Position numbers and translations under genes: made by a program | Part shown: in pieces, positions 19,999 to 61,600 of the stretch | Layout: the number at the start of each line of letters is the position of its first letter | Position numbering within the stretch: the stretch's first letter is position 1 | The notes under the pieces: generated by a model | What the model was told of the DNA's origin: nothing | The model's database searches: none | What the model saw: only the letters and a program-made list of their open reading frames with translations | Source: Capitulum mitella | Taxonomy: Eukaryota; Arthropoda; Thecostraca; Pollicipedomorpha; Pollicipedidae | Assembly (NCBI GenBank): GCA_030062745.1 | Contig: CP099839.1 | Coordinates: forward strand, 44,528,796-44,592,795 | Reading direction: 5' to 3' | Length of the DNA: 64,000 bases

Positions 19999-22900
19999 GT
20001 GAGTAACTGCCGCTCTCGAGAGCCACGGGAACGGGAGCGCCAGCGCTGAGGACGGCCCGGTCCGCCCCGCTCCCCGGGTCACCTGAACTCGCAAGTCGGG
20101 CTGCCGCTGTGCGCCGGCGACGTCCCCTGCAGTGGAGCCGTCCCGTTGTAACCCGGTGGACGCGGCGTGGCCCCGGGCCGTATCGGGCAGGGGAACCGGT
20201 TTTCGCGCGGCCGGCGAAAAGGCCGCGCCGCGTGTGACGTCACGTCGGGGGCGCGGCCGGCGGCCACGTGTCGGCCGGTGCCGGGCCGACCTTGCCAGCC
20301 CCGCCGTGGCCGGCCCACGGGACGGCCCGGCCGCTGGCTCGGTCTTCACTCGCCGCCGTCGGGCCCGGCCGCCGTCTGCAACTGGCGCTGTTTATCGGGC
20401 GGCAGCGGCTATCTAAATAGACCCGGCGTGCCATAGGCATTACGGCCAATGCCGGTGCGCGCCAGATCCGCGTACCGACGTGCGGAGCGCGGGTTCGGGG
20501 GAAGGGGGTGCCGGGCGGCGCTGCCGTTGCTGCCCCGGGCCGCCTGTCCGGGCCGCCTGTCCGGGTCGCTGCCGCCGCTGGCCCGCGCGCAGCCTGGACA
20601 GATTTGGGGGGAGGCTGTCGCGTATCTCAGCGAGCCGACAGCGGCGCCCACGTAGCGGCCGGGCCTCGGTGCTCCCGCAGGAACCGTTGCGGATGAATGC
20701 CCTCAGGAAACGCGCTGCCACTTTCGTCTAACCGGATCAAGGCGGCCATAGCCGTCTGCCGGCGGGCCGCAGCGCAGTCGTAAAGCGTGCTGCGGAGAGG
20801 CGGCCTTGGCACGATGCGTCCGGTCCCGCCCTCTCCCCGCCAACGCGACCCGTCGGCCGCCAGAGGCTAAATAAAAAGCTGGCGAGGACTGTGAGGGAGG
20901 CCGGCGGCGTCAGCGCGGGCCTGCCCGGGCTGACGTCGATTGCCGGCCGAAAATAAACAGGCATCCAACGCGGCGCGGTCCCCGCAGCCTGGCATGGCTC
21001 GCACGGTGGCGCAACGAAACCTCGCTGCCCAAATGGACTCCTCGCCGGCGTGTGTTGTCTGCAGCAACGACCTCGCTGTCTTCATCGCAACGAACTCTTT
21101 ACGACCCCCGTGCCAGACTGCCATAGGTATGTCGCTAAATGGAAAAAGGTCGCTGCTCTCTGCTCGCTGTTGCCACGTTCAAATCGATGCCCCTTTTATT
21201 TTTCGATCTAGGTGGTTTTGCATGACTGTAATTGTTTGAAAGTTGGCACCACACGCTTACGTTGTTGTTTACGCATTGTTTACATGCTACGGACAAGAGC
21301 ATTCTCCCCTGCCTGTGTGCTCCGCCGGGCCCCGGAACCCAGGCGCCGTCCGTCGTTCAGTCGGTGCAGACTGACTGCAGACTGCAGACTGCAGCGACCG
21401 GCGGCCACGACCAGCTGGTGCGGTTTTGTTCCCTGGTCTGGCTGCGGCCATCTGTCGGCGACTCCTGCCGACACCCGCTGACCCTGCTGACCCTGCTGAC
21501 CTCTGGATGACCCCTGCCGCAGGTCAGGCCGTCTGCTCGTCGATGCAGTTCTCGTGCGCCAACAAGCGGTGCATCCCGCGCTCGTGGGTCTGCGACGGCG
21601 AAGACGACTGCGGAGACAAATCAGACGAGCTGACTGCCGACTGCGGAGGTGAGTGGCTGCCTCACGGCTGGGTAAAACACGACAGGGCGGGAGCTGGGGT
21701 GACGACGGCGAACTGGGCTCCGAATTGGGCGGAGAGGGGGCAGCCACTACATCCGCCAGGAAACGGAATTCCGCGGACGTGGCCACGGGTGCGATTAAGC
21801 AAGAGATCCCACTGGAACGTCGTGGACTCGCATTGAAAACGCCTGAGGGAAAGGTTCCTGCGGGAGTTAGAAGTAAAGGGGACGCGTGTTTTGGAGATAC
21901 CTCTTGCACTTTTCCGGCACTTTTGTGCTGACTTCAATAGCTAAGTTTTCCCAGTACCGTTCTGTTGTTTTTTCGGTTTATATTGCAGGGTATTCTGCAT
22001 TTGAATTGGAATTTTCGAGGTGTCGTTTACCAGCGCAAATCATTGTATATACGATGTGTGACACTGATGCTGTACAACTTTCTGTAGTAGTTGGATTCAT
22101 CAGGCATGCAGTGTGCCCAACATCACGAGGTCTATTTTGCTTTGAACTGATCTTCACGACTTGGAAGCCCACTGAGCCTATATTAGTTACGGCTTCCTTC
22201 TGGTCGTCCACGTCAGACATCGTTTGACGTCCGGTGTCGCTATGATTATGATCGCGCCGGTTCCAATGTATACGCACCAGTAGTGCGTTGACCCTGAGAC
22301 TGATAGTTACTTCCCGCAACCATAGCTCTGCCCAGATAGCTCCCGTCCCTCCACGTGAGTTGGACAGTCCCTCCACGGGAATCGGGCCGGCGGTTGAATG
22401 ACTCCTGCGGTCGGAGTCGGTATCCCTTCCCTGCCCGTGAGTCGGACCGGCCGGATCGGCTCGCCATCCGGACCAGCGCCGGTGGAAGAACCGTCCGGCG
22501 AGACGTGATCCGCGCCTCGGAAACCGGACTCACCAGTTCCGGCGCCTGGTTTCCCGTCTCCTGGCCGGCCCCGGGTGGATCGCGCGCTGCTCTCCGCACT
22601 GCCGGACTGCGCGAAGCCTGCAGGGAGCGGCTCAGCACGGCGGGGCTCGAGCGGGCTTCTCAATCAGTGGGATGCCGACTCGGAAGTTCCTCCGCGTTGA
22701 TCAATCACGAACAAGTAGCCTTTAATTACGCCGGATAGCAAAAGCTCGAGCTATCTGGAAACAGTGTGACGCTCTTGTCTCCGTCAAGCCCCCGTCGCCT
22801 ATCACTCGGTCGGTCGAGAGCCATCATTGAAGGAAACAAGTTTCTTATTGATAAAGTGAAGTTTCCTGCTGTTGAAGTTGCCGCTGCTCTCAGGCAGGCT

Positions 22901-31900: not shown

Positions 31901-34900
31901 AGATTCGACATGGCGTCTGACTCTGTGTTCGGGCGTGCGGCGTACGAGAGGTGGCCGGACTTTGTTCCGGTGTGTGCGCGTCGCGAGCGGCGGCCTCGCC
32001 GGGCCTTTGGCCGGCCGGAGACCCGCTCTGCTCGGCGCGCCAGACCGACCCCGGCTGGCGCCCGCGGCCGCGTGCCGGCTGCCTTTCTGCTGTCCTCTTT
32101 ATGGCGCAATTTATTGTCGCTGCGGCCGAGCCGTAGGCGGGACCGAGCTCAATCTGGCGTGCGCCGGTCGCCCAGTTTGCCCTTGAGAGGCTGCGTAGCG
32201 CGCGCTACGCCGCCGGACTTCGGACGCCGTCCGGCCGCCGCCGGCTGACGCGCCGCCGCGCCATGACGCCGGCCGATCCCGCCCGCTGACGCCACGGACG
32301 TCAGGCGGTGACGGCGCGTCAGCCGGACGCGGCGTTTCCGGCCGGCCCCGGCGCAGGGCAACGGCGCGTGACGGACGGGTTCGTTCGGACGCCGGCTCGG
32401 GTCGCGATTGGCTGGATCGATGTCCGTGCGGGGCACGGAGTATCCTGAGCCGGCCGCCCTGAAAATGGCCCCAGCTCTCCGTCAACACGGACGGGGATCG
32501 TTTAACTGGCTCAGCACTGTGCGGAAATTTTGTGACGCGATGCGTACATGTACGGACGCAGAATATCACGCCGGATACGAAATTGGAAAGCTGGCCGGAA
32601 ACGGTTCTGATCGTGTCTGTATTACATTCCATATGTTTTGTTTTTGAAAAAGAAAATGCGCTATAGGGGCACCGGTCAGGAAAGGGCTTGTGATACAGCC
32701 GTAGGAGACGTACCTTTCGGCACTCTGCGAGTGGTAATGGAGTGGTCGTTTCTTTTGTTGTTATTCAGCGCTTCATGCGTTGTGTTTGAGACGAGTGCAC
32801 CAGGCTTATTTTTCTCTTGAATGTTTTCACACGAAGCCCTCAAAATATGCCGAAATAAATGCGAGCCGGACCATCGGCGGTCGATTCCAATCTGTAGCAG
32901 GCACAACATTTTTCAACGTTCTATGCACGTATGAGATTGATGGCGCAGATTCTGATATTCCGCGTCACTGAAAATATACGAACACCTCCGGCGGGAAATA
33001 CGATGCCATGACTCAGATGAAAAGGGTTATGGCATTGTGCTTCAAGAAAAAGACCTCTCCTGGAACTCCTATCGTCGACATTACCTCACTTTTTTCTCCA
33101 ACTTCGTAATCAGTAATTAAATGTTGGAAAAAAACAATCATTTATTAAAACTGGCCGTCAGCGGGGGTTCTGACACGTCTTAAGCTGACTCATCAAACCT
33201 TTCTTAAATGGCGTTTGTGCATAGATCCGGGACCATATTTCGTTCTGACATTATTGGCGTGGTTATTGGCCTACAACTCTGATGAAGCTCTACAATGTTA
33301 CGAATAATCCATTTGAGTGGCCAAAAATTCTCGACGGTCCGCGAAATCTTGTGTCCTCAAGGGCAAAGGCAGAACGTAAAGGTGACGGGGATCTTCATCC
33401 TTGTAACCTGACATACCCCGTAGTGTTGATATCATCCCGGATTTCGGCCACTTTGTTTCGCTATTCTCAAAAGTTGACATGTATAAAAAATGTTTCGAAA
33501 ACGAAAAACGCTATAGTACGAAGAAGTGCCAAAAGACACGTAACTCCCTCTTCCAGTAAGTGGGAGGGGGTGTGGACATGGCTTTGAACCCCCTGGATCC
33601 CCCAGTGTGTGCCATACGCTGCTCGTTAGAGCCTGAATAGCCGACTGCTTTGGAACTTTGCGGAGATTAGACTCATGGGCTGATTTAGTATTCAAAGAGC
33701 TGAACAGCTTCCGTTGTTTCGCTGAAAGCTTTAAAACTTTGTGAAGTTTGCTCATTTCTCATGAATGTTGTTATCACGTCTCATTTACCGTAAGTGACCT
33801 TCATCTGTCAATTCTTGTGGCTAAAAAGGTCGTAGGAAAAGTTATTCATCCTCATTTAATTTGAATGTTGCATGAATGCGATCATTTAATTGTAAAATGA
33901 ATGCAAATTCCCTTAAATGCATTCTTAGGGGATATACTGTTATGGTTCATAGTGGACTCCCGCCACTGATCATAATTGTACGAAATTCAACAATCTTTTA
34001 GTCAGCCACTCGTATTTTCATTGTTTCGGCACAGCCTACCTGGGGTTTCTGTGTGACGCCAGTCATCACGTCCTCGCGTGTTTGCCGTCAGCTGACTGAA
34101 AGCGGCAGTGGCCGCCTGCCAGGTTCGTGATAGACTGGTTCGCTATACTCTGGATCCGTGACCGTGGGGGCCGGCGCGATGAACGAAAGTGGGGAACTTA
34201 CTGACTCGCCGACTTCTTTGTGACTTTCCGCCGAGAGTAATGCTCGTTAACACTTCTTCCAAGCCCGTGACGACCAACCTGTTCTTAAATGGTGGGCACG
34301 TCGCTGTGGTCGTGAAACAGTCGTTTGACTGTCGATTCGAAGCTGGTTGATTTTCCTATCCCACCCGCAACGTAAATCGGGTCCGGTCGTTTCGACTCAG
34401 CTCTCTGTTGCCGACTGCTCGACTCAGCTTCTGGTTGGGGAAGCGGGCTACGGGGCACCAGGAATTGCACCGTTTGTAAGCCATGTGCCTCGACGCTGCT
34501 AGTAAATATTTGCAACGGTGATGGTAAATCGGCGACGTCCGCAGTGCCGCCGCCGATGCGAAGTAGGGGTCCAAGTCGTCGTCTGACCTGGTCAATACCG
34601 AAGAGCGTGGGTGTACCAAACTACTCTCGGGCCACTTTTTAAACCATGCTGTCTCCGAAATCAGGCCAGGTAACGTCAGTTTTCAGCGTGTCATACGGCG
34701 TGCTCTCGGAAAGTTTTCAGTGAAAGCAGATGGCGTTGAAATGCATGGCATCTAGACCGGGTCTCTGTTTTTTTTTTATGCCGTCGACGTACTATGCAGC
34801 ATTCCGTTCGCGAAGGGGTCATGGCGCCTGAGAACCATGCTCGGCGTGGTGTGGCGCCCATAGACCGTCCCGGACCACATTCCGGACCTGTTTGTATCCT

Positions 34901-37900
34901 GCGGATCACACTGCGGACCTGGGTGTACCCCCGGATCACACTCCGGACTCGTGTGTACCTCTTAGATCACACTCCGGACCTGGGTGTACCCCTGGATCAC
35001 ATGCCGGGTCTGGATGCACCCTGGGATCAAACTTTGGCCTTGGGTGTCCCCGCGAACCACACTCCGTACCTGGGTGTACCCCCAGATCACACTCCGGACC
35101 TGGGTGTACCTTCCAGATCACACTGAGGACCTGGGTGTACCGCCGGATCACACTCCGGACCTGGGTGTACGGTCGGATCACACTCCTGATGTGGTTGTAC
35201 CCTCAGACCACGCTCCAGACCTGGGTCTACACGTCACAGGCCCGAATCACAGTCAGCGGCTCTTGTTGTCAGTCACTGGTCGGGGCGCTGGCAGGAAATT
35301 CTGGCGCCACGCCTGGTCTTCGGGCCCGTGCCGGTATCACTGTATCACTTGCGACGGTTCCCCAGGTATTGTCGACTTTCGTTGCGGTTTTCGGCCCCAG
35401 GGTAGAGTGATCATTTCTAGTTTGGCCGTCTGGGTGGTGGTGTTTCCAGCTTCTGCTGAAGAATTTGGGGACGTGGTTCTGCATTCCTGCCGATGGTTTC
35501 CGAACGTGAGCGCGTACGTTCTGCCACCCCTCGCGTCTGTTCGCGATGCAGAGGCCGACTTCCGGCGGCGTTTCCGGGGATTTCCGTGGATCGACCGCGT
35601 CCTGCGTCCGCCGCCACGTCGGCGCCGGATGAGCGGGCCATTGCATCGGGGCGGCGCGCTATCGCCGACTTCCGGGCCTTTCCGGTTACGGACGGCTGTG
35701 TGCCGCCGGACGGGCGCGCCAACCCTCTGGCGACTCGATTTTCCCATATCCATGTAGGCCAGATTCTGCCGGATTCCGGCCAACATTTTGCCGGATCTGT
35801 TTCCACATTAAGCCCGGGCTGGAGGCTGGACGTGACCGAGATGCTCAGACGGCCACCTGACATTTGGCGCTCTATCTGGATGCTATAATGCCGCTATCAC
35901 GGCCTGACAGGCGGCAGCGAGTGGCTGATGGCCGTTGATTAAACAGCTGGCGGTTTTTTTCGGGGCAAAGTGCCTGGCGGTCCAGTCTGTCTCCGGGCGT
36001 GCTGCGGCCGCCGGTCATGGGTCCGGAGGCCGTTCCAGGACGGGACGGCGGCCGACCGTCCCGCGACTTCCAGTCTCGTGAAGCCGAGCGCTGACTCGAG
36101 CCTGGCTGGCGGACTCGAGCCACGCGTCACGCCGAGCAGGATCGGGCTCCGCGGAATGTTTCTGGGCGGGCTCTGTTTCGTGACTGATGGAATCCCCTCG
36201 TGAGTGCACGACGCACGCCTCGTGACGTCGGCAGGGACGCTGTCCGGTATCGCGCCCCTCGGTGACGTGTCCGCGTGCGACACGGTCCGTGCTGTGAGCG
36301 GATCCATCGTAGAGCAGGGCTCTGCCCGCTCGGCCTCGGTTGTCCATCGTCGCGTGTCAGGTGGTGGCGTAGGTCGTGCGGGTATTTTGTATTCGCCGCC
36401 GGTCGTGACGCTGGCTCGCAGGCCTATCGAGCGGCCTGCCTGTTGGAGGCGAGGTCAGGTCAGACGTTTCGAGCCGCGCAGTCGGTCTGCGCCAGCACAG
36501 ATGCGCGGCTGCACCGGGGCCTTCTCTGTCCGCCGGCGGCAGGCTTAGTCACAGTGATCTGGGAAAACGAACGGTGACCATCTGAGAGGGTCGCGGGGAA
36601 GGGAAACACCACGCCACTCTGGAGGTTGGACGGCGAAGCGGGATGCCCGGATTGAGGTTGTGGCTGCAGACGTTGTGATTGGTGTATAATGTTGGCTGTG
36701 CAGGCGGTGGCGGGGCGTTCTCGTGATGGACAGCAGGTTTACTGGCGCGAGACTCGGCCGTCACATCACCAACCTCCAGCGGAGCGTGGCCGCCTGGTGA
36801 TGCTGCCGGCTGACGAGATTTGAAACCAGGCGGCCGTCGGGCAGCAACAGATTCCTTTGGGAGGTCTTTCTGGGAGGGATGAGGGGCGGAACCACCCCGG
36901 CAGGCGTTCCGTTTGTTTACCGACTGGGGGCAGGCACGCGCCGGACCGGTATAAAGCCTCCGAGCGGTTTACGACGACGTTAAACCGTCGCAGGTCCGGG
37001 CGTCGTCCACCCGCTGCTCGCCGGCCGCCGTTGCCCCGCGCGGCCCCAGTTTTGCCTTTCCCCGCCCTGGTCAGTCGAGTCTGTGTGTGGGTCGGCGCGC
37101 CAGTTTTGCCTTTCCCCGCCCTGGTCAGTCGAGTCTGTGTGTGGGTCGGCGCGTCAGCCCCGCACCGCCAGTCAACATGGCGGCGGCGTCATTTCTGCTC
37201 CTGCTGCTGCTGTTGGTCGCATGTTCGTCGTCGACGCCGACCGTCACTGGTCTCAGTCTTGTCGCACGTAAGAGCCGCAACGTCCCGTTCCTCCGCTTGC
37301 GGAGGATCTCAGTTACCCGGCGGTCCGTTGCAGCTAGTTTTTGTAGATTTGGTACCCAGAACAGTTCTGCTCTGCATAAATGTTTTTGGGGTGTGGCTTT
37401 ATGGTTTGGAAACTGCGTTCCGGTATGCACCGTGCCCCCCTGTCTGGTAATGTGGAATGCTAGGCTCCACGGTATAGCTTTAAAACATAGCCACACATAC
37501 CGCTGTTAGCGTCCATTTTCCTTGGACTCAATTTTACACAAATTTTTGTGTGATGTGAGTGCGTTGAGAAAAATAAAAAAATCCACACATTATTCACTGG
37601 TGTGTGTTTATTTTCAAGTTCACAGAAATGTGACGTTCTGTGATTTGCCAGTTCCGACTTCCTGCCTTTTGTGCGTGCGTCTCAAGGGCGCGTGAAACGG
37701 GGGGCAGGGGCAGCGCCCCCCAATTGTTTGAAATTTAATATTGACCCTATGGGCGTTGACTGGAAAGGAAAGGACCCAGAGACCCTCTTTGCCTCCCCCC
37801 CTAACCGTGGGGGTGTTTTCGTGCCCCTGGTGTGTCTTGTTGAATTTTAAGTAGCACTGAAAACATTGGGTAATAATTAAAATAACTCCTCCTCGCTCAT

Positions 37901-43500: not shown

Positions 43501-46409
43501 CCGTCTGTTACAGCCGAACGCGATTGCCCGTCTGATCATTTCCTCTGTGGGAACGGCACGGCACTGGCGTGCGTGCCCACGCACTGGGTCTGCGACGGTG
43601 AAGTCGACTGTCCGGACGGCTCGGACGAGCGCAACTGCTGTAAGTGCGGGCGCTGCGTCGCGGGCGGCTAACGTACTAACCCCCCTGTGGTTTGCCTACA
43701 GCCGCGCGGACGTGCGCTGACGACCAGTTTGCATGTAAAAACGCGTCCGGGGAGTGCGTGCCCATCACCTGGCTGTGTGACGGTACCGCCGACTGCAGCG
43801 ATTCCAGCGACGAGGCCAACTGCAGTAAGCATCCCCGGCTAATGTAGTTCCCCGCCTGTACTACCGCCGCTCACTCTCGGTGGCTTCTCTTCTGCGCATG
43901 CTGGCCTGTCCCTTGCTTTTCAGACATGTGAGATTGAAAAGGTAGGCGGTGCGCATTTGTGTCTGCTTTCTGGCTCTGCAGATAATTCGAAAGAACCGTG
44001 TGTCAGCTATCTGTAATGGGTGCCAGTGTTTCCGACTTTCAATTCTTCCAGCTGGTCCATTTTCGTTCGGAAACTCTCAAGCCCTTTTCAACAATCCGAA
44101 CGTTTCTCAAAGTTTTGTGCATCACGTTGTGATTGACAAAACTTATTTACTGAAGTTTCCGAAAATGGGATTTTCTAAGTTTCCCATCGACGGAAAACAT
44201 TTTCGGACACCGCTGTTGGTAGTTGATGGCGTTTTCAATTCTTTTCGAAACAACTGAATAACTCTTTCTCCTCTTCAACTAATGCTCAGGTAACTGATGG
44301 CCCGGTGAGCTTAATTTTTCATCCGAAATGCCCGTGGCCATAGCAATCGCGTTTGAGCACTCCATTTTGCGCCAGTTAATCTGGAAGTGGGCCTGAATTG
44401 AACGAATGGGCGGCCGTCTCCGCTGGTCGGCGCCGGTCGGACCCGAGCCGCGACGCCGTCAGCCGGAGCGGCACGGCCCGGACAGAGGGTGTGAGGCTGC
44501 CAGGACGGCCCGGACAGAGGGTGTGAGGCTGCCAGGACGGCCCGGACAGAGGGTGTGAGGCCGCCAGGACGGCCCGGACAGAGGGTGTGAGGCCGCCAGG
44601 ACGGTCCGGACAGAGGGTGTGAGGCCGCCAGGACGGCCCGGACAGAGGGTGTGAGGCCGCCAGGACGGCCCGGACAGAGGGTGTGAGGCCGCCAGGACGG
44701 TCCGGACACCAGTACCGTCACCAGCTGGACTGATGGCCCGGACAGAGGGTGTGAGGCCGCCAGGACGGTCCGGACACCAGTACCGTCACCAGCTGGACTG
44801 ATGGCCCGGACAGAGGGTGTGAGGCTGCCAGGACGGTCCGGACAGAGGGTGTGAGGCCGCCAGGACGGCCCGGACAGAGGGTGTGAGGCCGCCAGGACGG
44901 TCCGGACACCAGTACCGTCACCAGCTGGACTGATGGCCCGAACAGAGGGTGTGAGGCCGCCAGGACGGTCCGGACACCAGTACCGTCACCAGCTGGACCG
45001 GTGGTCCGGACAGAGGGTGTGGGGTCGGCCGGGACTGGCGCGCCGCCGGCTCGTTGCGGCCCGATGAACGCTGCGGAGGACGGCGGCGCCGGCCGGCCGC
45101 TCTCTTGCGGGCCGTGTCGGACAGCGGGTCGTGGTCCCGGCGGACCGGCGGCCGACGGGTGATCGCGCCGCCGCGGCGGCGGTCGGCTGGCCGAGGTCGC
45201 CGGCTGGCTGCCCGGCCCACCCGGCCCGCCGCCGCCGCCGCCGCCGCCGGCGTCGGAACCTGCACCCAGCGACCGCCAAGAGCGGGCTTCGGTGAAGAAG
45301 TCGCTCGTATTGGTCCTCTGGGGCGTAGCTCAAACTGGTAACGTCTGGGAGACATCCAGGGAATGAGGTGAATTAGACTAGCTGCGCAGAAGGCCTTCTC
45401 AGAGGATTTACTTTGTCAAATTTACTTTAGTCAAAATAGTCCTTTACTTAGAATTAGTACATATTTCCGTGCTTATAAAAATTTTCCGTGCTTTTTATTT
45501 GTAAAATGATTATCAGTTAGAAAAATGCGGTTGGTTTCAAGTCCCATTCATTGAAGGACTCTAAGCCCGATTATTCATTTAGGTTGCTGTGCACTAGTTT
45601 ACAACAGTTACTGCAGTGATTATGTACAGACCGTCCATTGCGACATGGCCAGGAATAAATGTACAATAGGCTGAAAAGAAAGCCGTTTGACCATACTCAG
45701 CGAAGGAATTGTACATGCTTGTGAGCGCCACTGGTGCGCTTTTTGCATCATTTTTACGTATTTCTTTCCAAGCTGTCTGGTAGGTAGGTGGTAGCCAGCA
45801 CAACTTCATACCGCTTGGGATGCATTGCAAATGACCTAACGGTGACTAAATACATTGTCGGGAAGAGAGTGTTCTCTTAGGACCTTGCAGGGGCGGCGCC
45901 ACGGATTTGTGACGGTGGAATACTACCAGGGGCGCGGCCCTCTTGAAAGGCACTTCATTTTACGATTAACGATCTTAACAATAAAAAAACTCGTCGCTTA
46001 TCTGGCCGAAAAGACGGTTCGCAAAAATCCAAGAACCAGTGGTATGCTTCACCTCGTTTCACCTCACAATTTACGATAATGGTGTGGTATTGTGTATAGG
46101 CAGTACCCCACAAGCAAATGACTGTGGGGTGCTGATACCTCACGTACGACACGGGGGCGCTGCCCATTGTACCTTGATACACATCCAAATTGTGCCGTAA
46201 GTCGCCGCATTAGACTTCCAACAACTGGCATTACAGTGCCACAAATCAAATGTCGTCGTCGACCGGCACTCTCCTACGTAGATACGTAGTTTTGCATGTC
46301 GCAAGCCTTTTGTGTATGAACAAATGCATTACGGTGGACAAAAAAAACCCAGTTGTTCGTTGATAATTGACGAAAGGAACTGTCTACTCTCTCGCCCCAC
46401 TCTGAAACA

Positions 46410-46467
<58 letters not shown>

Positions 46468-49400
46468 TGTTTTTTTACCTCAGTCATGAGGACTCAGTGT
46501 TGTTCGTCTTTCTGCTGTCTCAAGTTTCTCTCGCCGGCGGTTGGAAAAGGGCTGCTGTTCCACTCTTCTCTGCACATACCCTGTTCTTCCCTGCAAGGGA
46601 CTTTCTTTTCCTGATTTCGTATAGTGTCCTGCTTTCTTGTGCATTTTAGCCGTTATCATGGCACGGCGTACGGCACGTTGTATGATATATGATTATGATA
46701 TGATTATGATATGAATATGAATACGAAATATTAATCAGTGTTCTTTTTGTCATTTGCCTGAAGTTCCGCACATGCCGAATTCTAGCTTCGTGTGACCTTA
46801 GGCCTTCGTGTATCTTACACGTGCAGCTTCTGAAGACGTATGGTCAATGTTTGTTACGTCTCTGCGGGATCGAATGCTCCGACAACGCGCTTGTTGCCAG
46901 TCTACGTCGCCCAGTAGACCTAATCATGATCGTGATGGAAGATCTGAAAGGGACCAGTCTTCAGGCAGCTTCTCCACTGAGTTGTTCCACTTGTCCTCGG
47001 CGTCGTCCTGCCCGCGACAGGGCGCGCTTCGGGTTTGAGTGGCCCCAATCGTGCGCGTGGCGGAGACGAGCGGCCCTGACGGCCGCCCTCTGTCCGCAGC
47101 TCAGACGTGTCCGGCCGAACAGTTCACGTGCGACGACGGCAAGTGCATCAGCGGCCGCTATGTGTGCGACGATGAAGAGGATTGTGCCGACGGCTCTGAT
47201 GAGCGCAGCTGCCAGGTACGCCGGTACGGGACGGGGTGGGATGGCGTCCCGCTGATTGTGACCAGTGGGTGGACCCCGTCGCCGTTATGACGGAATCACT
47301 GATCGACCAGACGAAGACCAGGTCATCGATTGTCGACATTTGTTTGTCGTATTGTGCACCGGCTTGTTTGTCGTACGCAGCTGCACCACCTTGTTCAGCT
47401 GCATACACTACGATGCATGCGCCGGACATCAGCTCGCTCTGCTTTTGTAGCAACTTGGCGAGACTGAAAACACCACGCTCTGTGTAATTTCATTATCTTC
47501 ATTTCTCTTCTGGAAAAACAAGACTGCTCATAATGAGAACTGAGCCCTTACCCCGCGAACGAACAGTTTCTTTGTATTCATTCTCCACGTTCTCTGGTGT
47601 TTCTGAAAACTTGGAAAAGCTAAGTGGTCTTTAAATTCGGTCCAAATGTCATCCGCTGAGTCGTGAACTGCTAGTAAGGCGTCCAACTCGTCGCGGCGAA
47701 TTTAGAAATCTCCGCGTATGCAAAGCTGGCTCCTTCCTGGGTATCTCCGAAGCGCCTATTTGCATCCGGCGCTGGCAAATTGGACTCGGCGAACGTCTGC
47801 AAAATGGCGGCGGTACCGGCCGCTGGAGCTCGGCGAATTGGTCTGCCGACGTCGGTGGGGCGGCGGGGGCAGGGCGGTCGAGCTGGCGTCTCACCGCTCT
47901 CTGTCGTGTTTCAGCGTCCCACGTGCAGCCCGGAGTCCCAGTTCACGTGCAACAGCGGCGAGTGCATCAGCCTGAGCGCGCGCTGCGACGGCGACCGCGA
48001 CTGTCACGACGCCAGCGACGAACAAGTGAGGCCGCTCAGCGACGGCGGCGCGCGGGCCCTGCGACCGGACCGCGCGAGGCGCCCGACAAAGGGACCAGGT
48101 CCGCGTGCGATGCCCGACAGAGGGACCAGGCCCGCGCGAGGCGCCCGACAGAGGGACCAGGTTCGCGTGAGACGCCGGACAGAGGGACCAGACCCGCGCG
48201 AGGCGCCGGGCAGAGGGTCCAGGCCCGCGCCAGGCCGCCGGGCAGAGGGTCCAGGCCCGCTCGAGGCGCCCGACAGGCGGCTCCGAGCTGCCGGACCGAG
48301 CACTCAGAGACGCGTTGCACGCTGTCTCCGGGGAGCTTCCGCCGCGGCTGCCGGCTCGACGCGCGGCGGCCTGGTTAAAGGGAGTTGAGGCATCGACTGA
48401 CAGCGGCTGTAATTAGGTTTTCGCCGGCGGCGGACGCGTTTCGGGCGGAGGACGGCGCGCTCCCGGGGGTCGGCGCGCACCTGCCGCCGTGGATTGAGAA
48501 CGCTGGCCTGGCCAAGCCTGTTTGTCGGCCAAATTAAATTGCAGCCGGGCTGGAGGCTGCCTCCGAATGAGAGAATTTCCTGCTGCTCTCAGCCTTTTCC
48601 GTTAAGATGTATCCGTTAGAGAGGCGTTTTTACACTTCTTGTTTACGTCGTGTGCTATATATATGCTTGTAGTAAGCTTTCTAAATTTTTGCTGTGGCGT
48701 TTTTCACGCGTATTTTCGGGCCTACGGTTGTTATTCATTGCCTTGTGTAATCTATAGTTTCCAGCTTAACCGATGTGTATGTTGCCCGTAAACTCAGAAG
48801 TTCCGTGCCTGTCACAAGAGTCAGGTCGATGTCTGGTAGATGGAGAGCGAGGGGGGGGGGAACAGATGAGACGGGCAGAAAGGTGGTCTAAAACAGTTCA
48901 GCTAATCATGGTGCGATGTCGCCTCAACTTAATCGTTCCAAAGTTCTTAAATGGAGGTCGTGAATTCGCCTATTTGCATACTTGGCGTCATCTTAACGAC
49001 CATCAAACGTCAAACGACCAGAAAAAGGAAATTATCCAATTAGTCAAAATGGCGCTGCGTGTGGCGGCAGGCGATTGGTGGCGAATTTCGCCGCGACTGT
49101 GTGCTCGTCAGACGGCTTTCAGCCGCTCTTGCTCCGGTCTGTATAAGCGGAGCTGACCGGGCATACGCCGCGTGCCGCAGAACTGCCTGACGGAGCCGCT
49201 GGCGCCGACCAGCGTCTGCGCGCCGGGCGAGGTGGTCTGCGGCGACCAGGTGACCTGTATCTTCCGCCGCTGGATGTGCGACGGCGACAGGGACTGTCCG
49301 GACGGCTCCGACGAGGACCCGGCCAAGTGAGTGCCGCGCGCCGGCCGACCGCTCTCCCTGGTCGGGTCCAGCGGGAGCGGCGGTGGCCGTTGCCACCGGG

Positions 49401-52400
49401 CCTGTCCGCCTTAATGCTGATGTACGGTCGTTTTTATGCTTATTGAAGGAAAGAGGGTGTGGCTGCAGTTTATTTTCTTTTTGTGGGTGCACTCGCGCTG
49501 TCGTTGCCATTTTCGATAGTGCCACAAAGATGTGTTTGGACGTCAATGTGGTCTTTATGCATAATTTCGATTGCGTTTGTATTTAAACGCACTGGGGGTG
49601 CTCACGTATTCGATGTATTGCGGGTTCTAAACGCCGGGGTATTTGGAACCCACAATACATCGAATGCATCAGCACCCCCAGGGCGTTTAAATACAAACGC
49701 AGTCGAAATTATGTATAGAGGCCACACTGACATCCACCCACCACTGCGGCGCTAACTTTGTGGACGTGGTTAATGGTATTTACAACTTCGGTGGGGTTTT
49801 GCGAAGTTGTTCTTTTGAGCTGCGGGGGACGCGGTCACCATGGTTCCAGCTCCAAGCAAAACTTTTGCGTTATGTCAACCAATAGGACCCTATTGCAGAA
49901 GATTGTACCCTGAGGCAACCGAGTTTCCGGTCATTCCGTGAATGTGCTGGGACAGTGCTGCAGACAGCTTGAGTGGATCTAGTCCCCTGGTATCCCGTTG
50001 TATGGGTAGACCGGAGCAAGTGATGCTTTAGTTCGGTAGATGATTTAGTAGCATCGCTTCCCAGGGAGAGAAAGAGTGTCGTCGCGAAACGTATCCGGAA
50101 GCGTGCCGTCAGTGCTTTACGTACCACAAGGGTTTTGCCTGATGACCATACATGTAATGCATTCAGGCTGGCTGGATTTAGCCATTTGGCATACGTGTGC
50201 AAAGCGTCCCTCCTGTAGCTCGTCCCTGTGGAGGGCCGGCTAAGTGACGGCCCCGCCGCTCATCAGTGTAGCCAGAACTTTGGGTCCCGAGGCGATGGGG
50301 GACGTCCCCATATATTCATGCGGTCTCAAATAAACCAGTTAGCGTGGCCGTATTATTCAGATTAGGTTCGGGTTTGGCCCGCCGCCAGGCCGTTTATCTG
50401 TTTTGAATGGCGCCGTCTGGCGGCGGGGCGAGGCGTCCCGCTCGCCAAATCCAGCCTGATAAAGTTGTGCTGACTCCGGAGATGCTGTCGGGTTCCGCTC
50501 TAGCCTGTAATTGAAGAACTTCTCCAGCTGTCTGCGCAGCTTGCGTATCGCGTGTTTTATGCCGTCGCGGATCTTGGTGAAGTTTGTTGTTACAGGTGTA
50601 ATGAAAACAACTCGCTGCAGCCAAACAACATAAGCCCCGACTCCCTGAAAGCGCTGCTGCTGCTCACTTGAACAGGAATTGTGGTCTACGTCTCATGCTG
50701 TTCTGCAAAGATAGAGCTTTTCTGTCTTGTTTTCAGCAAAGTTGTTGGTATTCCAAAGTGTGTCTCAGTTGATCGGTATCAGCTTTGCATTGTTATCGTT
50801 TTCTTTGTGTGGGATGTCAAGCAGATGTGCTGCAAGGTCTGCAGTAATGTATGGTGTCTGCGGTAGTGATATGACACACGCCTGCCTTGCTGCCTGATCA
50901 GAGGCTGACCTGCCTGTCGCCGGTTCACCCTGACCCCAGTCTCCTCGCCGCCAGGTGTGAACCGCCCTCCTGTCGGGAGGACCAGTTCCAGTGCGGTGGG
51001 CTCGGTGAGTGCGTCTCGCACCAGCTAGTCTGCAACGGAGTGACCGACTGCCGCGACGCCAGCGACGAGGCCAATTGCAGTGAGTCGGCACCGACGCCGT
51101 GCGCGACACGGGCCACCCGTACACGTGGCGCGTCGTGTGAAGCCGTCCAGTGGCGCCGCGGCTAATTCGGGCGTGCCGGCGTTATTGGATGTCGCCCGCG
51201 CGCCCGTGCCTGTCTCAGATCGGCGCGGCGAGGTGTCTGCTCGGCCGCCGTCCGGCCGTCCGGGCTCGTCTGATTATTAGTCATGCGGGAGGGAGGCTGC
51301 CGTCGGCCGACGGCCCGCGCTGGTCCTCCGACGGCGTCAGCGGCGGCGCGGCCCCCGCATGATAACGAGGGCCGCCGGGCCGACAGATGGCGGCGGGGCC
51401 GAGTCTTTGCGACGTGCGGCCGGGCGGGGGCCCCTGCGGACCGGCGCCAGACTCGGCGCCCGGCTCACGTCAGCCGCGTAATGGAGCGGAAAATTCGGCC
51501 AGCGCGGCGCCGAAAACAAAGGCGTCACGGTGCCGGCTCTGGAACGGTGGCCGGAGCCGGCCTTTAATGAAAGCTCCCTAATGATGGAGGTATCTCGTCG
51601 CCAGCCGTACGCCCGGTAGGAGGGGGTGGTGGGCACAGAGGCGGAGGGGGGTGGGGCGTCATTACTTCCGGTGCCGTGAGAACGGTAAATGGTCTGGGGC
51701 CGACGGCCCATGCATGCCGATGAGCCCTGGAGTTTTCTGCGCTGTTTCTGTTTTTTTTTTCTGTTTGCGCTGTTTCTGTTTGTCCTGTTTTCTGCGCTCA
51801 CGGCTGTGTTGTTCAAGGGAAGGCTGCAGGGAGTACGGGGCTCTGTCACGCTACCACTGCCTTGCTCTTTGGAGAAGGGTTGACATAGGCGTGTGGCAGT
51901 TTGCCAGGCCATGACATTGCTGTGTGGAAGAGGGCTGAAACAGGCACGCGCATTCGACCATGTCAGGGCTTAGATGCTTCGCTGGAGCTTTGAAAAGGTA
52001 CACGTAGCGACCCTGTTGTTCTGAAGGAGGTATCAGCATGTACGCTTCATTCTGCCAGGAGGGAAGTTTGGAGAGACGCTGCCAACATGTAGCCGACTGT
52101 CCGCAGTACTTGAGGACCGCGCTGCTGAAATTCTCGGCAGAGGTGCCAGTACGCTGCTTTGGCCGGGGACCGGCCCCTTGTCTGTTGCCGCCTGTCTGCG
52201 CTGCCCCTGCGGCGTGCTGACCGTGACCTGACCCCTGAGCGTGCGATGACCGGCGCCGGAACCTCTGCCGCAGCCGTGACGACCGCCTGCGACCCGGAGC
52301 ACCAGTTCACGTGCGCCTCCGGCCGCTGCGTGGCCGCCGAGCTGGCCTGCGACGGCTCGGACGACTGCGGCGACGGCTCCGACGAGGCCGCCCTCTGTCA

Positions 52401-55400
52401 GCTCAACGAGTGCGCGCAGGAGAACGGCGGCTGCAGCCACGGCTGCCGCAACCAGCCGGTCGGCCACCGCTGCTTCTGCCCGCGCGGCTTCCAGCTCATG
52501 GACGACCGCAAGACGTGCGAAGGTAGGTGGCGGCGCAGCCCGGCCGCGGCGGCGGCCCAGTTCAGAGCGCTGGCCGCACACACCCGGCGCCACGGTCTGG
52601 CCCGAGCGGGACCAGCGATGCCGCTCTCTTCGCAGGCTAGCGTTTCGAACGCTGGAGGAATGTGGTCATAGTGCTGACTTCTGGGAAGGCAGCCATGCTG
52701 TGTTGTACCTTCTTGCTGATCTGACGTATTGTTTCGAAATTAAATCGCTTAATGGGGTAGGTGGGGATAGGCATGACTGCTTCCGTCTCAGGCACAGATC
52801 ATCTATTTCATACACATCGCTAGATGGTTGTCATGTTCCCCGATTTAATAGCATTTTTTCCCTGGCTCCCATCTAATGAATATCAGCCGAGCACCGTGCC
52901 TCCTGGCTTTTGACGGCGTGTATTGATGCCATCAAGCCACCGAGGCGGACCCTTTCGAGATCGACTCGGCTGTCTCCGGTAACAGACGTCATACCTCTGA
53001 GCTGAACACTACCGCTGCGTCCACATTCCTCGCCGGCCGGCCAGCGCGTGACCCGCCACCCTGTGCCGGCAGACATTGACGAGTGCCAGATCCCGGGCAC
53101 ATGCAGCCAAACGTGCATCAACGAGAAGGGTTCGTTCAAGTGCGAGTGCTTGGAGGGCTACATGCGTGACCCGGCCGACCATACCTTCTGCAAGGCTGTC
53201 GAGGTGCACGCCTCGCTTCTGCTGACGCACAGGTCAGCATTGATCGCTTCGTTGCTCGTGTGATATGGCTTAGGTGATATCACGCATTAGTCGGGACGTT
53301 ATCATTTCGCGCATGTGTATCGAGGGTTGTCTGCAACGTGCTGTCCAGTTCTGTCATGCGAACGGACACGCTGAACAGCGTATTTGAAGTGGCTGAATCT
53401 GATTACGTTATTTATTTGCTGAAGCTCTCGGCCAAGGTAGCCGTTTGGTGTTTATTGCCACCCAGGATTTAGCTTGAAGCACCCCAAGGTTTCAAGGAGG
53501 GAGGGTGTAAGCTCATCGCCTTCAGTGTTCGTCGACTAAACTCCTTCACTGTTTGTCTCCGTCGCGCCAGTATCTCCTACCACCCCCGGTGTTGAGTGCA
53601 TTTCACGGGCGGTTCGGCGCTTTGCGCCGCATGGACCCATCGAGGACAATGCTTGGTTTGAGTGTATTCCATCTCCCTTATTTATTACCGCAAGCCTATT
53701 TATTGTATGGTATTGCTGTTCGGTTGAAAGTGCTGGTGACGCTTGCAGTTTTTTTTATAGTGTTGCATCTTTACAGAAACCGGCATAATGATGCATCAGA
53801 ATGAGGTGTGCTGGAGTGAATGCTGCTGGCATTAGAGCCAGAACATATATCATGCCCAAATGGGTCGTTTTGCCGCGTTCCAAGACCTGAATCGATGTGG
53901 CTGCTGCACTAATTTATATTTCTCTTGTTATGATGTGACACAGTATTATAACAACAGTATCCGTCGCCAAACTCCTGACTGGGATCCCTTTGGTCCCGTC
54001 ATTTCTTGATGCGATTCGGGCGCCCGACCTCCGAAACTTCCGTGCCGGTTCGACCGAGATCGATGCAGTCTGGATTATCGGGCCCGAGCGCAACTCACGA
54101 CAGATCCCGGCCCGGGACGGCGGCGTGGCCTTTGACCGCGGCATGTGGACGGTTTATTCTGATTTCAAATACGACTCCGGCCGTCGGCCGTCGGCGGACA
54201 AATGCTCAAACTTTGATCGAGTGTCCTATTGGCCCGACCGACTCGGAGGAGAATCGATCTCTGGGACGCCGCGGCCATGACGAGGCTTCTGCCACGGTCG
54301 CCGGACCGGCCGGCGCCCGCCGACCGATCGGGCGGCACGGGCCTGTCCAAACACCGCCGGAGAAACGCCGATGAAGAGATCACGTCCAGATACGTCTGTT
54401 ATGTCCCTGCAAGCGCCACGGCTTCCAAAAGCTTCTCTGTGGCTCCAACAAGGCGTGGCTGTGTCGAAACGCCGCCCTGTGGCCCGAACAAAACGGCGGC
54501 GTATCCAAACAGTCTTTTTTGCCCGTGGTGAAGCGGCAGAATGTTTGAACAGTACCTCGTAACACGGCGTCCGAGCGACGCTGCCCTTAAACGGAGGCTG
54601 CCAGCCGGCCTTGAGACCCAGCAGCCGGCCCTGTGCTGTGTGACCGCTTCCGTGAAGGAGCATCGTTAGCGGGGCTGGCCCAGCCGTGGAATTAGCGTGC
54701 CGGAATGGAGGTCCGGCCACAATCAGACCGTGATTAAACCTGAGCTGCCGACGCTCGTCGGCCGCGGCGTCGGCCGGCTCCCGGCGTCAAAGGCCAGTAA
54801 TAGACACTCATAAATTGTCGTGTTTCCGCTGCAGCGTGCTCTCGAGGAGCTCGGAGCTCGGAGCTTATTGGCTTTGCCTTCCTCGTCCGAGTAGTTATGA
54901 GAGTTCTAGAGCGCTCGACCCGCGCATAGGCTTTGCTCGGCTGCACTGGGGCTTAAGATCTTTTGTCTTTCAAACGTTGCTAAGAGCTCCCACATGAGCA
55001 GCTTAAAAGTTTAAATGCGTGACGGCGTTCTGAAATGTCGGAATGATCATTGCAATATGTGAGACTGGTGGCTTTATATTGCTAATATGCTCGGAGTACA
55101 CCAGCTGCTCAGCCGGCGGACCATTCTTGAGACCGGCAGATACGGACAGACATACTACTCAGACAGACTGAATGCTGCCTGGTCCGTTTGAAAAGCTGCC
55201 TCCAAGGCATGAAACATTCTTCGAATTTTGCGAGTGAACATGTAATGCCACTATCTGCAGTGAAAAGTTGGGAGAATGTCGAGAGGAGCTAGAGGAGGAG
55301 ATGGCCGTCAGTGTCCCGAGAGAGTCTCCGGGACTCGAGGTTCACGGCTCCGGGTAAAGTAAATTACCTTCTGAAGTTATGTGACTCGGAGCGTCAGGGC

Positions 55401-55656: not shown

Positions 55657-58600
55657 TCTGCTGGCTGAGCGCCGCTCTCGCAGGCCGTTTCTCTCGCTCG
55701 GTTCAGCTGAACTCGATTGAGTCGTTTGCTCCGGCCGAGACGGTCCATGGACGGCCCCCGTAGAGGCCCGTTGCTCGTCTGGTGGTATCAGCATCGGCGG
55801 CTGCGGCGGCCGCGCCGCTGGGGACTACGTTACTGCCGGATCCTCTGATTAACTGCAGCGGGGTCAACTGGAGCCCGACTATCTGTTGATCGTCCGCGCG
55901 GTGGAATGGTGATGAGCACGGCGCCAGACAATGGGGTGTCTGACGGGCGCCGAAACGGGGGAGTTCTGAGCCCCGGGGCTTCCGGAGCCAGCCTGACGGC
56001 CCCTCCCCATCCGCTGCAGGACGGACATCCGCAAGGTGGGCCTGTACCAGCGCGAGATGACGGCCATAGTCAACAGCACCCACACGGCTACCGCAGTCGA
56101 CTACGAGTTCCGCACCGGCATGATCTTCTGGTCGGACCTCGGCGACCGACGCATCTACAAGTGAGTGGCGTGGACCGTAGGGCGGCCGGCGCCGGACGGG
56201 CCGCTAGCGGCGCCCACTGCTCCGTCGGTCGTCGGCCAGGGTCGTCTCCGGGCTGCGAGACTAGACAAATCGCGCGCCGGCCGCCGCCGCCGCCGCCTCC
56301 GCGGCGCCGCCGTCCGGCCGGCTCGGCTATCGTCGGCGCCGACGGGACGGGCCGTTTGTGGGCCGTTGGTCGCGTGCGGCCGCGCCGCTGCTAAGAGGAT
56401 TACCGACATCTCCTGCCGGGCGCGGCCGGGCGAAGAGCCGGGGGATTTGGGACCGCAGGGCCCGCGGCCGGGGTATTTGGGACCGCAGGGCCCGCGGCCG
56501 GGGGATTTGGGACCGCAGGGCCCGCGGCCGGGGGATTTGGGACCGCAGGGCCCGCGGCCGGGGGATTTGGGACCGCAGGGAGAACGCGAGAGCGTGGCGG
56601 AGCGTCTTATTGTCGAGGTTTCTGTGATGCTACCTAACCAATCCGGGTGCTGGCCCCAGGCCTTCTTGTCACACTGACGCACTTTCTTGGCCGGTTGAAG
56701 TAAATGCTCAAGGCTCAGATGGGACGACCTATTTCCTATTTGTGGGCAAGTGGCTGAGCTCCCTCTAATTACGCTGGATTGCTACGGTCGGTAACGATCG
56801 TGTAGCGAGCCTTCGCGGCGTTTCTGCCGCTGTGAGCGACGCAGTCCTGACAGTCAGTCATGGGGTGTGGGAGTTTCTGAAGCTGTGAGCGACACAGTCA
56901 ATGGCTTGCCGCTCGGTCGAACGCTCGCCGGCGTCGCCGGGAATAGGAGCGGCGGCTGCGGCGCCCGATAGCTCCGCTGTCGACATTAATTGAACTAATT
57001 GGCCCGGCTCCAGCGATGGCGTTCAATAGCAGCCCGGGGCAATCGGTATCATCGTCCGACGACGACGAACGGCGCGGCGACGGCGGCGCGGCCAGTCGTC
57101 AGCCGGGCTCGGGTGTCGTCTTCTGGTGGGCCGCGCCCTGGTGGAGCGCCCGCGTGGTCACGGAGCTCAATTTCCGACGGGCCGTCCGATTTTTGCGCGC
57201 CCCGGCCCGGTAGCGTAATCCTTGAGACCGTGACGGGCCGGGGTGAGGCTAATAAGACGCGGCGGCGTATATATTGCCGGCGGCGGCGCCAGGCTGACGC
57301 CGCGCACCCCGGCAGCCATCCTTTTGATGGATCGGACCGGCTTTGATCTGCGCCGGCCTCCTAACTCAGCCCGCCTCGTGCCCGGAGCGCATTAGGGCCT
57401 CTCGCGGCCTATCCGGCCCGCCGGATCCGGGCCGTCCGACCTGGCCGCCCGCACGCCGCCGCGAATGACGGGCCTGAGCCGCAGACGTTGCCGGCTGTCC
57501 GCTGGGTCTCCTCGGAGTGACGCGAATAGAACAGCACACGTTCTCCCGCAGTACGTGAGGCTGCTGTCGTGGCGCAGCGAGCCGCAATCTTCCTCCACCA
57601 ATGAGAGAATTCTCCTTAGTCGTCATCCCCCCAGGGACGTGACGAAATGTCCGTATCTTTGGCCGTGAATTTGGTTGCTGCGCGGGGTGCACGTTTTGGT
57701 GTGGTGTGCGCCCTTTGGTATAATTTAAAAGTTCTCCGTCTCTGACTGCGATGTGGTCTGTGTGATGCAGCGGTTCGGCCGCCGTCTGACCGCCTCCCCG
57801 CTCCGCCGCAGGGCACCGATCGACGAGGGCTCGGAGCGAACCGTGGTGGTGCGCGACGTCAAGGCCGAGGGCATCGCCGTCGACTGGCTGTACCGGCACC
57901 TGTACTGGATCCGCGCCGAGAGTGGCCGCAACAGCATCGAGGTGGCCGACCTGAACGGCAACTATGCGGCCACGGTGGTGGGCACCGACCTGCTGCAGCC
58001 GCGCTCCATCACGCTGGACCCCGGCCAGGGGTGAGTGACGCCGCCGCTGCCCTGCTCCGCACCAGACCGTCCGGCGCCCCTGCCGACCGCCCTGACCCCA
58101 CCCGACACTCGACCCAGCGCCCGTCACGACTGGGCGGCGCTGGGAAATGGGGCAGCGTTGTGCGACATCGCTCCAACGCTCGCCTCGAGGGAGTTACCGT
58201 GTGTCTTGCTGACATTGTTTAATGTAACTTTGCAACTTTGATGTTGCCAGTGCCATCCTGACGCTGCGCCAGCTGAAATTGCTTGAGTGACGCTACCACT
58301 CTGAGACCTTATCAACTGGATGTATTGTTCCGACTGGAGTGGCAGGCGGCAGGTGAACTGTGAGTGACGGTGCTGTTGTGACGCCGTTTCAGCTGGATGT
58401 ACTGGTCCAACTGGGGAGCCAGGCTGCAAGTGTACCTTGTCTGACGGTGCTGTTGTGACGCCGTTTCAGCTGGATGTACTGGTCCGACTGGGGAGCAGTG
58501 CAAGTTCCTTTCTGACGGTGCTGTTGTGACGCCGTTTCAGCTGGATGTACTGGTCCAACTGGGGAGCCAGGCTGCAGGTGTACCTTGTCTGACGGTGCTG

Positions 58601-61600
58601 TTGTGACGCCGTTTCAGCTGGATGTACTGGTCCAACTGGGGAGCCAGGCTGCAGGTGTACCTTGTCTGACGGTGCTGTTGTGACGCCGTTTCAGCTGGAT
58701 GTACTGGTCCGACTGGGGCGCCAGGCCCAGGATCGAGCGGGCCGGTATGGACGGCAGCCACCGCCAGACGATCGTCGACACTCGCATCGAGTGGGCGAAC
58801 GGCCTCACGCTGGACTTCGTCAAGATGCGGCTCTACTGGGTGGACGCCAAGCTGAAGCTGATCGAGAGCGCCGACTTTGACGGCACCAACCGGCGCATCG
58901 TCATCAGCAGTCCCGTGACGCTGCTGCACCCCTACAGCATCACCACCTTCGAGGACTCCATCTACTGGACCGACTGGGACAAGCGGAGCGTCTTCAAGGC
59001 CAACAAGTTCACCGGCGCTGGGGTGACCAGTGTCGCTCCCATGGGCAAGGTAGGCAGCCGGCGGGGCTGGGACTCAGGGGCCACGGCGCCGGAAATTGTC
59101 TCAGGGGCGTGGGTTTCTGCGGATACGATAAAGTAGACTTGCGAGTGTTTCAGAACGTATGTGAAACCAGGAAATTATTCGTGCCCGGAGGAATGGCAGT
59201 GGGCGTTTTTTGTCAGTTTTCGTTTTTTGTCGACGATGGGCCACCTGGACAGTTTCTGACGAGGGATTGTTCTGATGAAGTCCTCTCGAGCGTGTACACT
59301 TCTAGTCCGTCATGCCCTGATGCCTCTGTTCCACAGCTGAGATTCCCGGTAGAGGTGCGCGTTTACCACCCGTACCGGCAGCCGAACGCCACCAACCACT
59401 GCCTGCCTATCAACGGGCAGTGTTCGCACGTTTGCCTGCCGGCGCCGGCGGTGGCCGGCAGTCGGAGGCGCACAGGGTGCGCCTGCCCGGCCGGGCTCAC
59501 GCTGAAGCAGGACGGGCTCACTTGCACGGAGAGAGGTGAGCGCCGCCTCGCTGGACGGTGGCGACCCAGCAGGGGCGCTCCGGCGCCGAGCCGGTCTCAA
59601 CCGGGACGGGGACGGACTGGAACGGGATCGAGGATGTGTATGGACTGATTCTGCCCGAAATGCATGAGATGGGGAACGCTTATATGGTGTCCGATGCTCC
59701 TTCGTTTTGTGCTTCTTGGTGAACAATCGCGTCATTGTGTCTATAGCGTAGCTGGGGTGTGCATGAGCTGCGGTGTGATTGCTGCATTGTGTTTTGGCTT
59801 ATATTCTAACATGGCATGACTACGCTGTTTGTTCAGTGAGAGCACGCATCTTGAGCATCCGTAACTCAGAGCTCTCATGGTCTCTGCTGCTGTATGTTTT
59901 CTCAATGCGCACGTCCACGGATGACCCGCATGCATCCTGCGTCCCAGAGTCCGGTATCCGTTCTTCCGAAGCATTTCGGTTTTACATTTCCTTTCATCGA
60001 GCATGGTCGAATATACGGCTTTCGTCCTTACGCCCGCTGGCATGCTTTCGCAGGGAAGGCTATCCATATAGAGTGGCGTTTCGCACCCCCCGCACGCAGA
60101 CTGGCGGCTCCGGTGCCCCCTCATTTTGCTGTCTTTCCAAACGGAACCGAGACACCTGGCTACGAAGCCAAACGCATGGAGCCGACTGTAACACGGAATG
60201 GTATGACTGCCGGTTCGACGTCGCCTGTTGCAGACAGACGTCATCCCGTCTTTGACTAACTTTGTATTTGCTCTGTTGTCATACTATTTTTCGTTATTTT
60301 TTCAAGAGGCCACTTCCGTTAGACGCTCAGGTAACTTGATCACGCGGATTCAGATGGGATTCATCCCTTAACTCATTTTTGTTACTGTAATAAACTGGCG
60401 TTCAGCAAGAAAATGAATTGTCCTATGCATTCTAGTCTGCTTTGCCCGAGCATTTGTCATTTGGGCGCTTAAAGGAAATAGCGTTTTGAAAAAGAAACGA
60501 ACTATACCAGCGGGAATTGGCTTGACACGGCACCATTCACATTATGATGCCCCTTTTAAGCAGTACGCTTTATGTCGTGTCGCGGTCGCCGCGTGTTGAG
60601 CCTTCAGTGCTGTTGAGACTGAGCCTGTCCTGTGTTCCTCAGCGACCACCAGCTCTCCGACTACCCGAGTCGCCGACCCCACGGAGCACAAGACCTCGGC
60701 CGGCGCCGACGACGGCACCATCGCCGGCGTCGTTATCGGCTCCGTCATGTTCGTGGTCATCATTGTGCTGGTGGTAGGTCGAACGAGGGGCCGATCCCCA
60801 CAGGCCAGAGGTGGCCTGCGTATGCGAATGGGGCATGTGTCGTAGAAGTGTTTTGTGAGTAATGCAGCGCCGCCAGAAAGATTCAGACATGTTATGTGGC
60901 CACTGTTCAATGTCGGAATACACAACATCATGTGCTGTGTTCTTCCGCAGCTTGGTTACTGCGTATATCGCCAGTGCCCCAGCCAGGGCTTCCGGAACTT
61001 CGACAACCCCATATATAAGAAGACCACCGTGGATTCTATCAAACTGGAGAAGTCCAGGAGTCCGTGCGAACGTGGCAGAGGGAACGAAGAGGTGAGCAGG
61101 TTGGGGATGTCAGAGTACGGACGTCGCACAGATGCCGCTTGATCACAGCTTCAGGATAGATTAACCACGCGTGGCTGATAGGAAATCACTGAAACGCTCG
61201 TGCGAGCACGCGTCTAACACCAGCTCTAACGTGGTCAACGCCTGCTACAGCTTTGAGCTGGCAGTCTTGGCCGGGCTTGGATGCACTCCCTCAGTTCAGG
61301 CTTGACTGGTCTTCAGTGCCTTTCCGATCTCCTCTGGAACCCCCGTCCATCCACGTGAACTCCCCAGACAGCGGTGTGGCCCGCCTGACGTACTCTCACC
61401 GCCCCACCAGCAGCCGATAGCCGAACAGACGCTGGTCAGTCACGTGTGCTGAGCGCCACTGGCCCCGGTACGTGGGCCTTTTCATCCGTGCATGGCAGCG
61501 GCCCGCCCGCTTGATGTTTGCCATATGGTGGCGGGGCACGAGCAGCAGTGAGGTCTCGTCCGTCGTTATGGTTTTCGCCGACTTGTTTCTGGTGACTTGT

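Follow-up and report, generated by a model that had tools for sequence, protein, structure and literature searches.

A boundary-spanning minisatellite with decoy splice acceptors in a predicted LDL-receptor-family gene of the barnacle Capitulum mitella

Tandem alternative acceptors of the NAGNAG type present several rival acceptor sites to a single exon, a few nucleotides (nt) apart. In the 64,000-nt stretch of the barnacle Capitulum mitella genome analyzed here (contig CP099839.1, positions 44,528,796 to 44,592,795 of the forward strand; hereafter the window, to which coordinates refer), rival acceptors are instead spaced by 71-77 nt, and a whole intron end together with the start of the following exon is repeated in front of an exon of a predicted LDL-receptor-family gene. 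The closest described systems are the so-called ‘mirage’ minisatellites of amphioxus, which are known from Adh3, the globin genes BflGb6 and BflGb9, PGBD5 and TnC (PMC3087553, PMC3902484). According to these reports, mirages are tandem copies of an exon-intron boundary that carry splice signals in many units and occur in several genes of one genome, the inner units being homogenised and the cluster edge not. The mirage of BflGb6 has exactly the form found in the barnacle, i.e., an intron 3' end joined to an exon 5' part, with units of 150-160 base pairs (bp) as opposed to 77 bp here; those of Adh3 measure 10-72 bp. The host differs as well, and the amphioxus work recorded both allele length differences and normal splicing, whereas the present array is known from the sequence of one assembly. 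A further system, functionally tested, is intron 7 of human factor VII, which contains a variable number of homologous 37-bp repeats, with the real splice site in the first of them; only the exon-side site is normally used (‘oriented scanning’), and the case concerns a 5' splice site rather than the acceptor side (PMC6627357). In the open-access literature searched, no mirage in an arthropod, no case of mirages recurring in paralogous exons at a common intron position, and nothing on barnacle intron minisatellites was met.

A preliminary description of this DNA, made from its letters, had pointed to five head-to-tail copies, mostly of 77 bp, directly before the true exon, and these are real: Tandem Repeats Finder places a tandem array at 58312-58726 (period 77, 5.5 copies, score 662), which forms the 3' part of a 664-nt intron (58031..58694, on the + strand like all features given below; boundaries deduced from reading frame and GT/AG). 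The units start at 58316, 58393, 58470, 58541 and 58618, at spacings of 77, 77, 71, 77 and 77 bp, the last leading to the true exon at 58695. Each would comprise ~45 nt of intron end and ~32 nt of exon start, so that the repeat spans the exon-intron boundary. The acceptors proposed earlier, i.e., the decoys at 58393, 58470, 58541 and 58618 and the true site at 58695, are indeed preceded by the same 15 intron nt, GTGACGCCGTTTCAG. Unit A (58316..58392), the oldest recognisable full copy, has a dead acceptor, 58316 being preceded by TCAA. Units B (58393..58469), D (58541..58617) and E (58618..58694, ending at the true acceptor) measure 77 bp, while unit C (58470..58540) measures 71 bp, its six missing bases being spread in the alignment over several small gaps in a stretch of about 21 nt; it is otherwise unit-like. 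The first 32 nt of the true exon (58695..58726), the coding part common to the units, match the exon-like part of unit D at 30/32 positions. The exon itself (58695..59049, its end placed approximately at a GT donor) begins WMYWSDWG and encodes class B (YWTD) repeats. In the 477-Mb assembly, a 28-nt intron pattern, allowing up to three mismatches, has exactly five matches; all lie in this array, one of them preceding the true exon.

The freshest copies lie beside the exon and decay increases with distance from it, the oldest being the farthest, because, with the 71-bp unit C left out of the pairwise counts, units D and E are identical, B differs from them at 1/77 positions, A differs from B, D and E at 12-13 positions, every one of them in its first 49 nt, and a degraded half-copy of the intron part of the unit (58284..58315) is, together with the next five nt, identical at only 26/37. 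This half-copy match (58284-58320) was reached by none of 43,412 other background windows between position 20000 and the end of the stretch, and 0/300 shuffles were as good in each of four anchored tests; without its last eight nt it is identical at 19/29 positions, a score equalled by four background windows. Further decayed copies to the left of 58284 were sought and rejected: in local alignments of 58031-58264, 392 and 217 of 500 shuffles did as well, and for 58031-58311, where 137 and 61 of 500 did so, significance was not reached. This leaves the half-copy as the only one to hold up. The earlier view that the array has aged a little yet keeps its acceptor motif agrees with the unit differences and the half-copy, with the qualification that the motif is kept in four decoys and lost in A.

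Similar arrays were found at other exons of the same domain family. Thirty PF00058 loci, representing 26 distinct open frames, were fetched (two further PF00058 matches yielded no locus) and examined by self-comparison and subsequent reading, with 30 kinase and 8 fn3 loci as controls under the same test. A first test, requiring a copy to overlap the matched domain, flagged 2/60 loci (L015 and L019), and a second, requiring one copy in the open frame and the other outside it, flagged 10/60, of which L015, L019, L029, L030 and L044 were kept. Boundary arrays thus lie at the 5' edge of 5/26 distinct LDL-receptor class B exons, three strong and two weaker. The strong ones are that of the window's exon (L019); that of L015 (C12:24510727, array 1274-1514), with 28-bp units, CCCCAG/GTACATG at the boundary and older copies farther upstream; and that of L029 (C12:24486635, about 1062-1507), a composite of 29, 43, 56 and 203 bp with the boundary CGCAG/TATCCTGATGTGGACC. 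The weaker ones are those of L030 (C6:27817741; 70 bp x 3.2) and L044 (C12:24485761, 562-1433; 42 bp x 20.7), which ends at the exon start and has a stop after every one of its 18 decoy-like acceptors; in both, exact sharing is limited to the first seven exon nt. The kinase and fn3 loci (n=30 and n=8) yielded no kept array under this test, which is blind to arrays wholly within an open frame, and the kinase loci are an imperfect control in that many have long open frames and exon edges may fall outside the locus. Three comparisons, each chosen after the data had been seen, gave P values of 0.009 (5/26 versus 0/38), 0.006 (3/11 versus 163/4436 AG sites) and 0.08 (4/11 versus 1/15).

The remaining flagged loci were dropped: L034 is the same exon as L019, L022, which may be a decayed array, and L027 have one match each, of 22-23 nt, the array of L036 stops short of the exon, and L073 has a short match in C-rich sequence. 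Among the fn3 loci 3/8 were flagged (L077, L082 and L084), with few matches of 71-82% identity that, judged from coordinates only, are not tandem arrays. Of the open-frame array candidates that were read, a set without L040, L051, L056 and L064, three (L048, L054 and L058) resemble coding sequence of a repetitive kind, and the 24-bp array of L080 stops some 80 nt short of where the exon probably begins. Repeated AG sites also occur in loci without a kept array, e.g., L027, L040, L056 and L080. Some features lie on the far side of these exons: L029 has an additional 20/60-bp array at 1716-1883, after the exon end; in L027 (C9:8753747) a tandem array begins close after the likely donor site (about 1776-2117); and in L030 the exon end with its donor (1702-1753) resembles a downstream stretch (2066-2118; 79% over 53 nt), which is perhaps a boundary duplication on the 5' side of an intron.

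Four of the five array exons have the same intron position and phase. As a swap control, the final 15 intron plus the initial 20 exon nt from each of 11 exons with this position and phase were sought in the upstream 420 nt of each. The own intron scored higher than any of the ten others for L015 (27 versus 23), L019 (35 versus 20) and L029 (33 versus 19), and won less clearly for L030 (24 versus 20) and L022 (24 versus 21); the best of six array-free introns scored 18, 20, 19, 20 and 20 for L015, L019, L029, L030 and L022, respectively. When only the 20 exon nt were used, the own intron held for L019 (20 versus 16) and L029 (18 versus 12), and the comparison with the six array-free introns gave 17 versus 12 for L015, 20 versus 12 for L019, 18 versus 11 for L029, 13 versus 12 for L030 and 14 versus 13 for L022. 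In the case of L015 the closest competition comes from the introns of L019 and L022; these contain an array or possible copies, as do the better rival introns of L030 and L022. On these swap scores there are three strong arrays at the common intron position, one weaker and one possible. Possible decayed boundary copies lie upstream of position 1500 in L022 (C12:24535071), with 24/35 matches to its own edge and at most 21 for other introns.

The array is most probably a passive boundary-spanning minisatellite of the mirage kind and not a dedicated switch, a reading favoured because of its anatomy, the restriction of its intron pattern to a single locus, the left-to-right age gradient, the like arrays at other exons, the own-intron wins in the swap control and an array-free paralogue on C8 (L017) with the same intron. 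It is favoured, too, because the amphioxus mirages, according to their authors, leave regular splicing undisturbed (PMC3087553, PMC3902484). Those marks of a mirage that the assembly can show are found here, i.e., a boundary-spanning unit, a splice signal retained in many units (AG and the identical 15 nt in four decoys and the true site, lost in unit A), homogenised inner units with a diverged edge, and several loci in the genome. A segment of the last ~45 intron nt and the first ~32 exon nt would have been tandemly duplicated, and the array would then have grown and been homogenised through slippage or unequal exchange; the rightmost copy would remain coding, while copies to its left would drop into the intron and decay. 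The gene could tolerate the array if the spliceosome mostly picks the acceptor beside the full exon, presumably through exon definition, and the decoys are probably mostly ignored by splicing. Identical acceptors would need no constraint beyond array homogenisation.

Several points weigh against this reading. Over -28 to +16 the decoys have the same sequence as the true site, so that the spliceosome need not discriminate cleanly between them. Furthermore, the last 28 nt of the unit are invariant in five copies although unit A has its 12-13 changes elsewhere, and selection could yield such an invariant acceptor segment, as does an edge of homogenisation; special conservation was not concluded, P ranging from 0.0014-0.0025 if columns are independent, through 0.013 with nine variable columns (the six missing bases of unit C plus three), to 0.16-0.25 with three or four. 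In the swap control, none of the remaining six exons (the C8 paralogue L017 is one) scored best with its own intron, and the exon-only swap was thin for L015 (17 versus 16) and failed for L030 (13 versus 14) and L022 (14 versus 14).

The preliminary description had left two options, a neutral minisatellite seeded by an exon edge and a splicing-based control through frame-shifted transcripts. The former is borne out, being of a published kind, recurring at other exons and having its oldest copies farthest from the exon; regulation by the decoys is unsupported by positive evidence. Such control would operate through a regulated fraction of splicing to the decoys, leading to an early in-frame TGA and nonsense-mediated decay (NMD), with copy number tuning the receptor level. 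The simpler product of a decoy is not a frame-shifted one but an early in-frame stop: read straight on, each decoy, that of the 71-bp unit included, gives WMY..S[N/D]W and then TGA after 15-17 residues, whatever its distance to the true site. All decoys thus provide the premature stop from an alternative site that an NMD switch would use, their acceptors are identical, and over the five arrays 32/33 decoy-like sites hit a stop before the true exon, although 18 of these 32 are repeats within a single array (L044) and a few probably arose by chance. Stops are, however, expected whenever intron sequence is translated, and the sole decoy of L030 stays open. RNA structure hiding the decoys was considered and rejected, the fold signal over the array being absent (z -0.58 for 411 nt; z 0.32 for the DNA fold of one unit). 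With an array-free C8 paralogue that has the same intron, and with amphioxus mirages that are reported to splice normally, such poison-acceptor control is improbable.

A GCAG/GTGTAC junction had also been proposed to turn a copy into a 37-nt frame-shifting microexon. The junction is present in the units at 58541 and 58618 and absent from those at 58393 (GCAA/GTGTAC) and 58470 (GCAA/GTTCCT), so that AG and CAG/GTGTAC flank 37 nt in D and E, while B and C carry CAA before GT. Serial microexons, one per unit, would leave intervening introns of only 34-40 nt, which is very short for animals, and GTGTAC is a poor fit to the donor consensus; on these norms, they are extremely unlikely. An assembly error in the copy number or in unit C could account for that unit's six missing bases, which lie in small gaps such as a noisy long-read consensus of a repeat could give. 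The units differ by base substitutions too, however, and like arrays at other loci make the array itself unlikely to be an artefact; a partial error of this kind is very unlikely.

The presence of five arrays in one receptor family of an arthropod suggests that mirages also occur outside amphioxus. It is possible, and proposed tentatively, that the start of the YWTD exon is a recurrent seed, with arrays of unlike units in three (strong), perhaps four to five, of 11 paralogous exons, and that mirages are common in this arthropod lineage, where they would steadily supply decoy acceptors and new introns. The seed site would be one phase-2 intron position just before an h-M-Y-W-[ST]-D-W motif, and recurrent seeding perhaps stems from the codons of W-x-x-W-x-x-W, which place CTGG every 9 nt next to a tolerant intron. 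Such boundary arrays are natural experiments on spliceosome choice among near-identical acceptors, L044 placing 18 decoy-like sites before one exon, and paralogues with and without arrays are material for testing intron gain and decoy splicing.

The host gene is, as its predicted domains indicate, a member of the LDL-receptor family. Pfam Ldl_recept_b (PF00058; 1.9e-26) matches two class B stretches on 58684-59067, covering the array-bearing exon, and the upstream coding exon of the same gene (57810..58030, start approximate, donor GTGAGT at 58031) matches Ldl_recept_b at 3.4e-08 on 57810-58034. Class A repeats were found in 5/9 upstream stretches tested, and EGF-type modules lie at 52129-52671 and 59340-59537. 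The C8 paralogue may be an ohnologue, since a whole-genome duplication is reported in barnacles in one study (PMC11331182). The same gene region of the window contains further minisatellites, their periods being about 30-32 bp, at 34869-35230, 44473-45021, 48063-48276 and 56437-56580. Elsewhere in the assembly, at least 150 scored matches to Chitin_bind_4 were recorded, and TTAGG arrays are plentiful (2807 forward and 2922 reverse matches), lying at many internal places of contig C1, where the first 100 listed fall between 2.5 and 10.8 Mb of 45.5 Mb.

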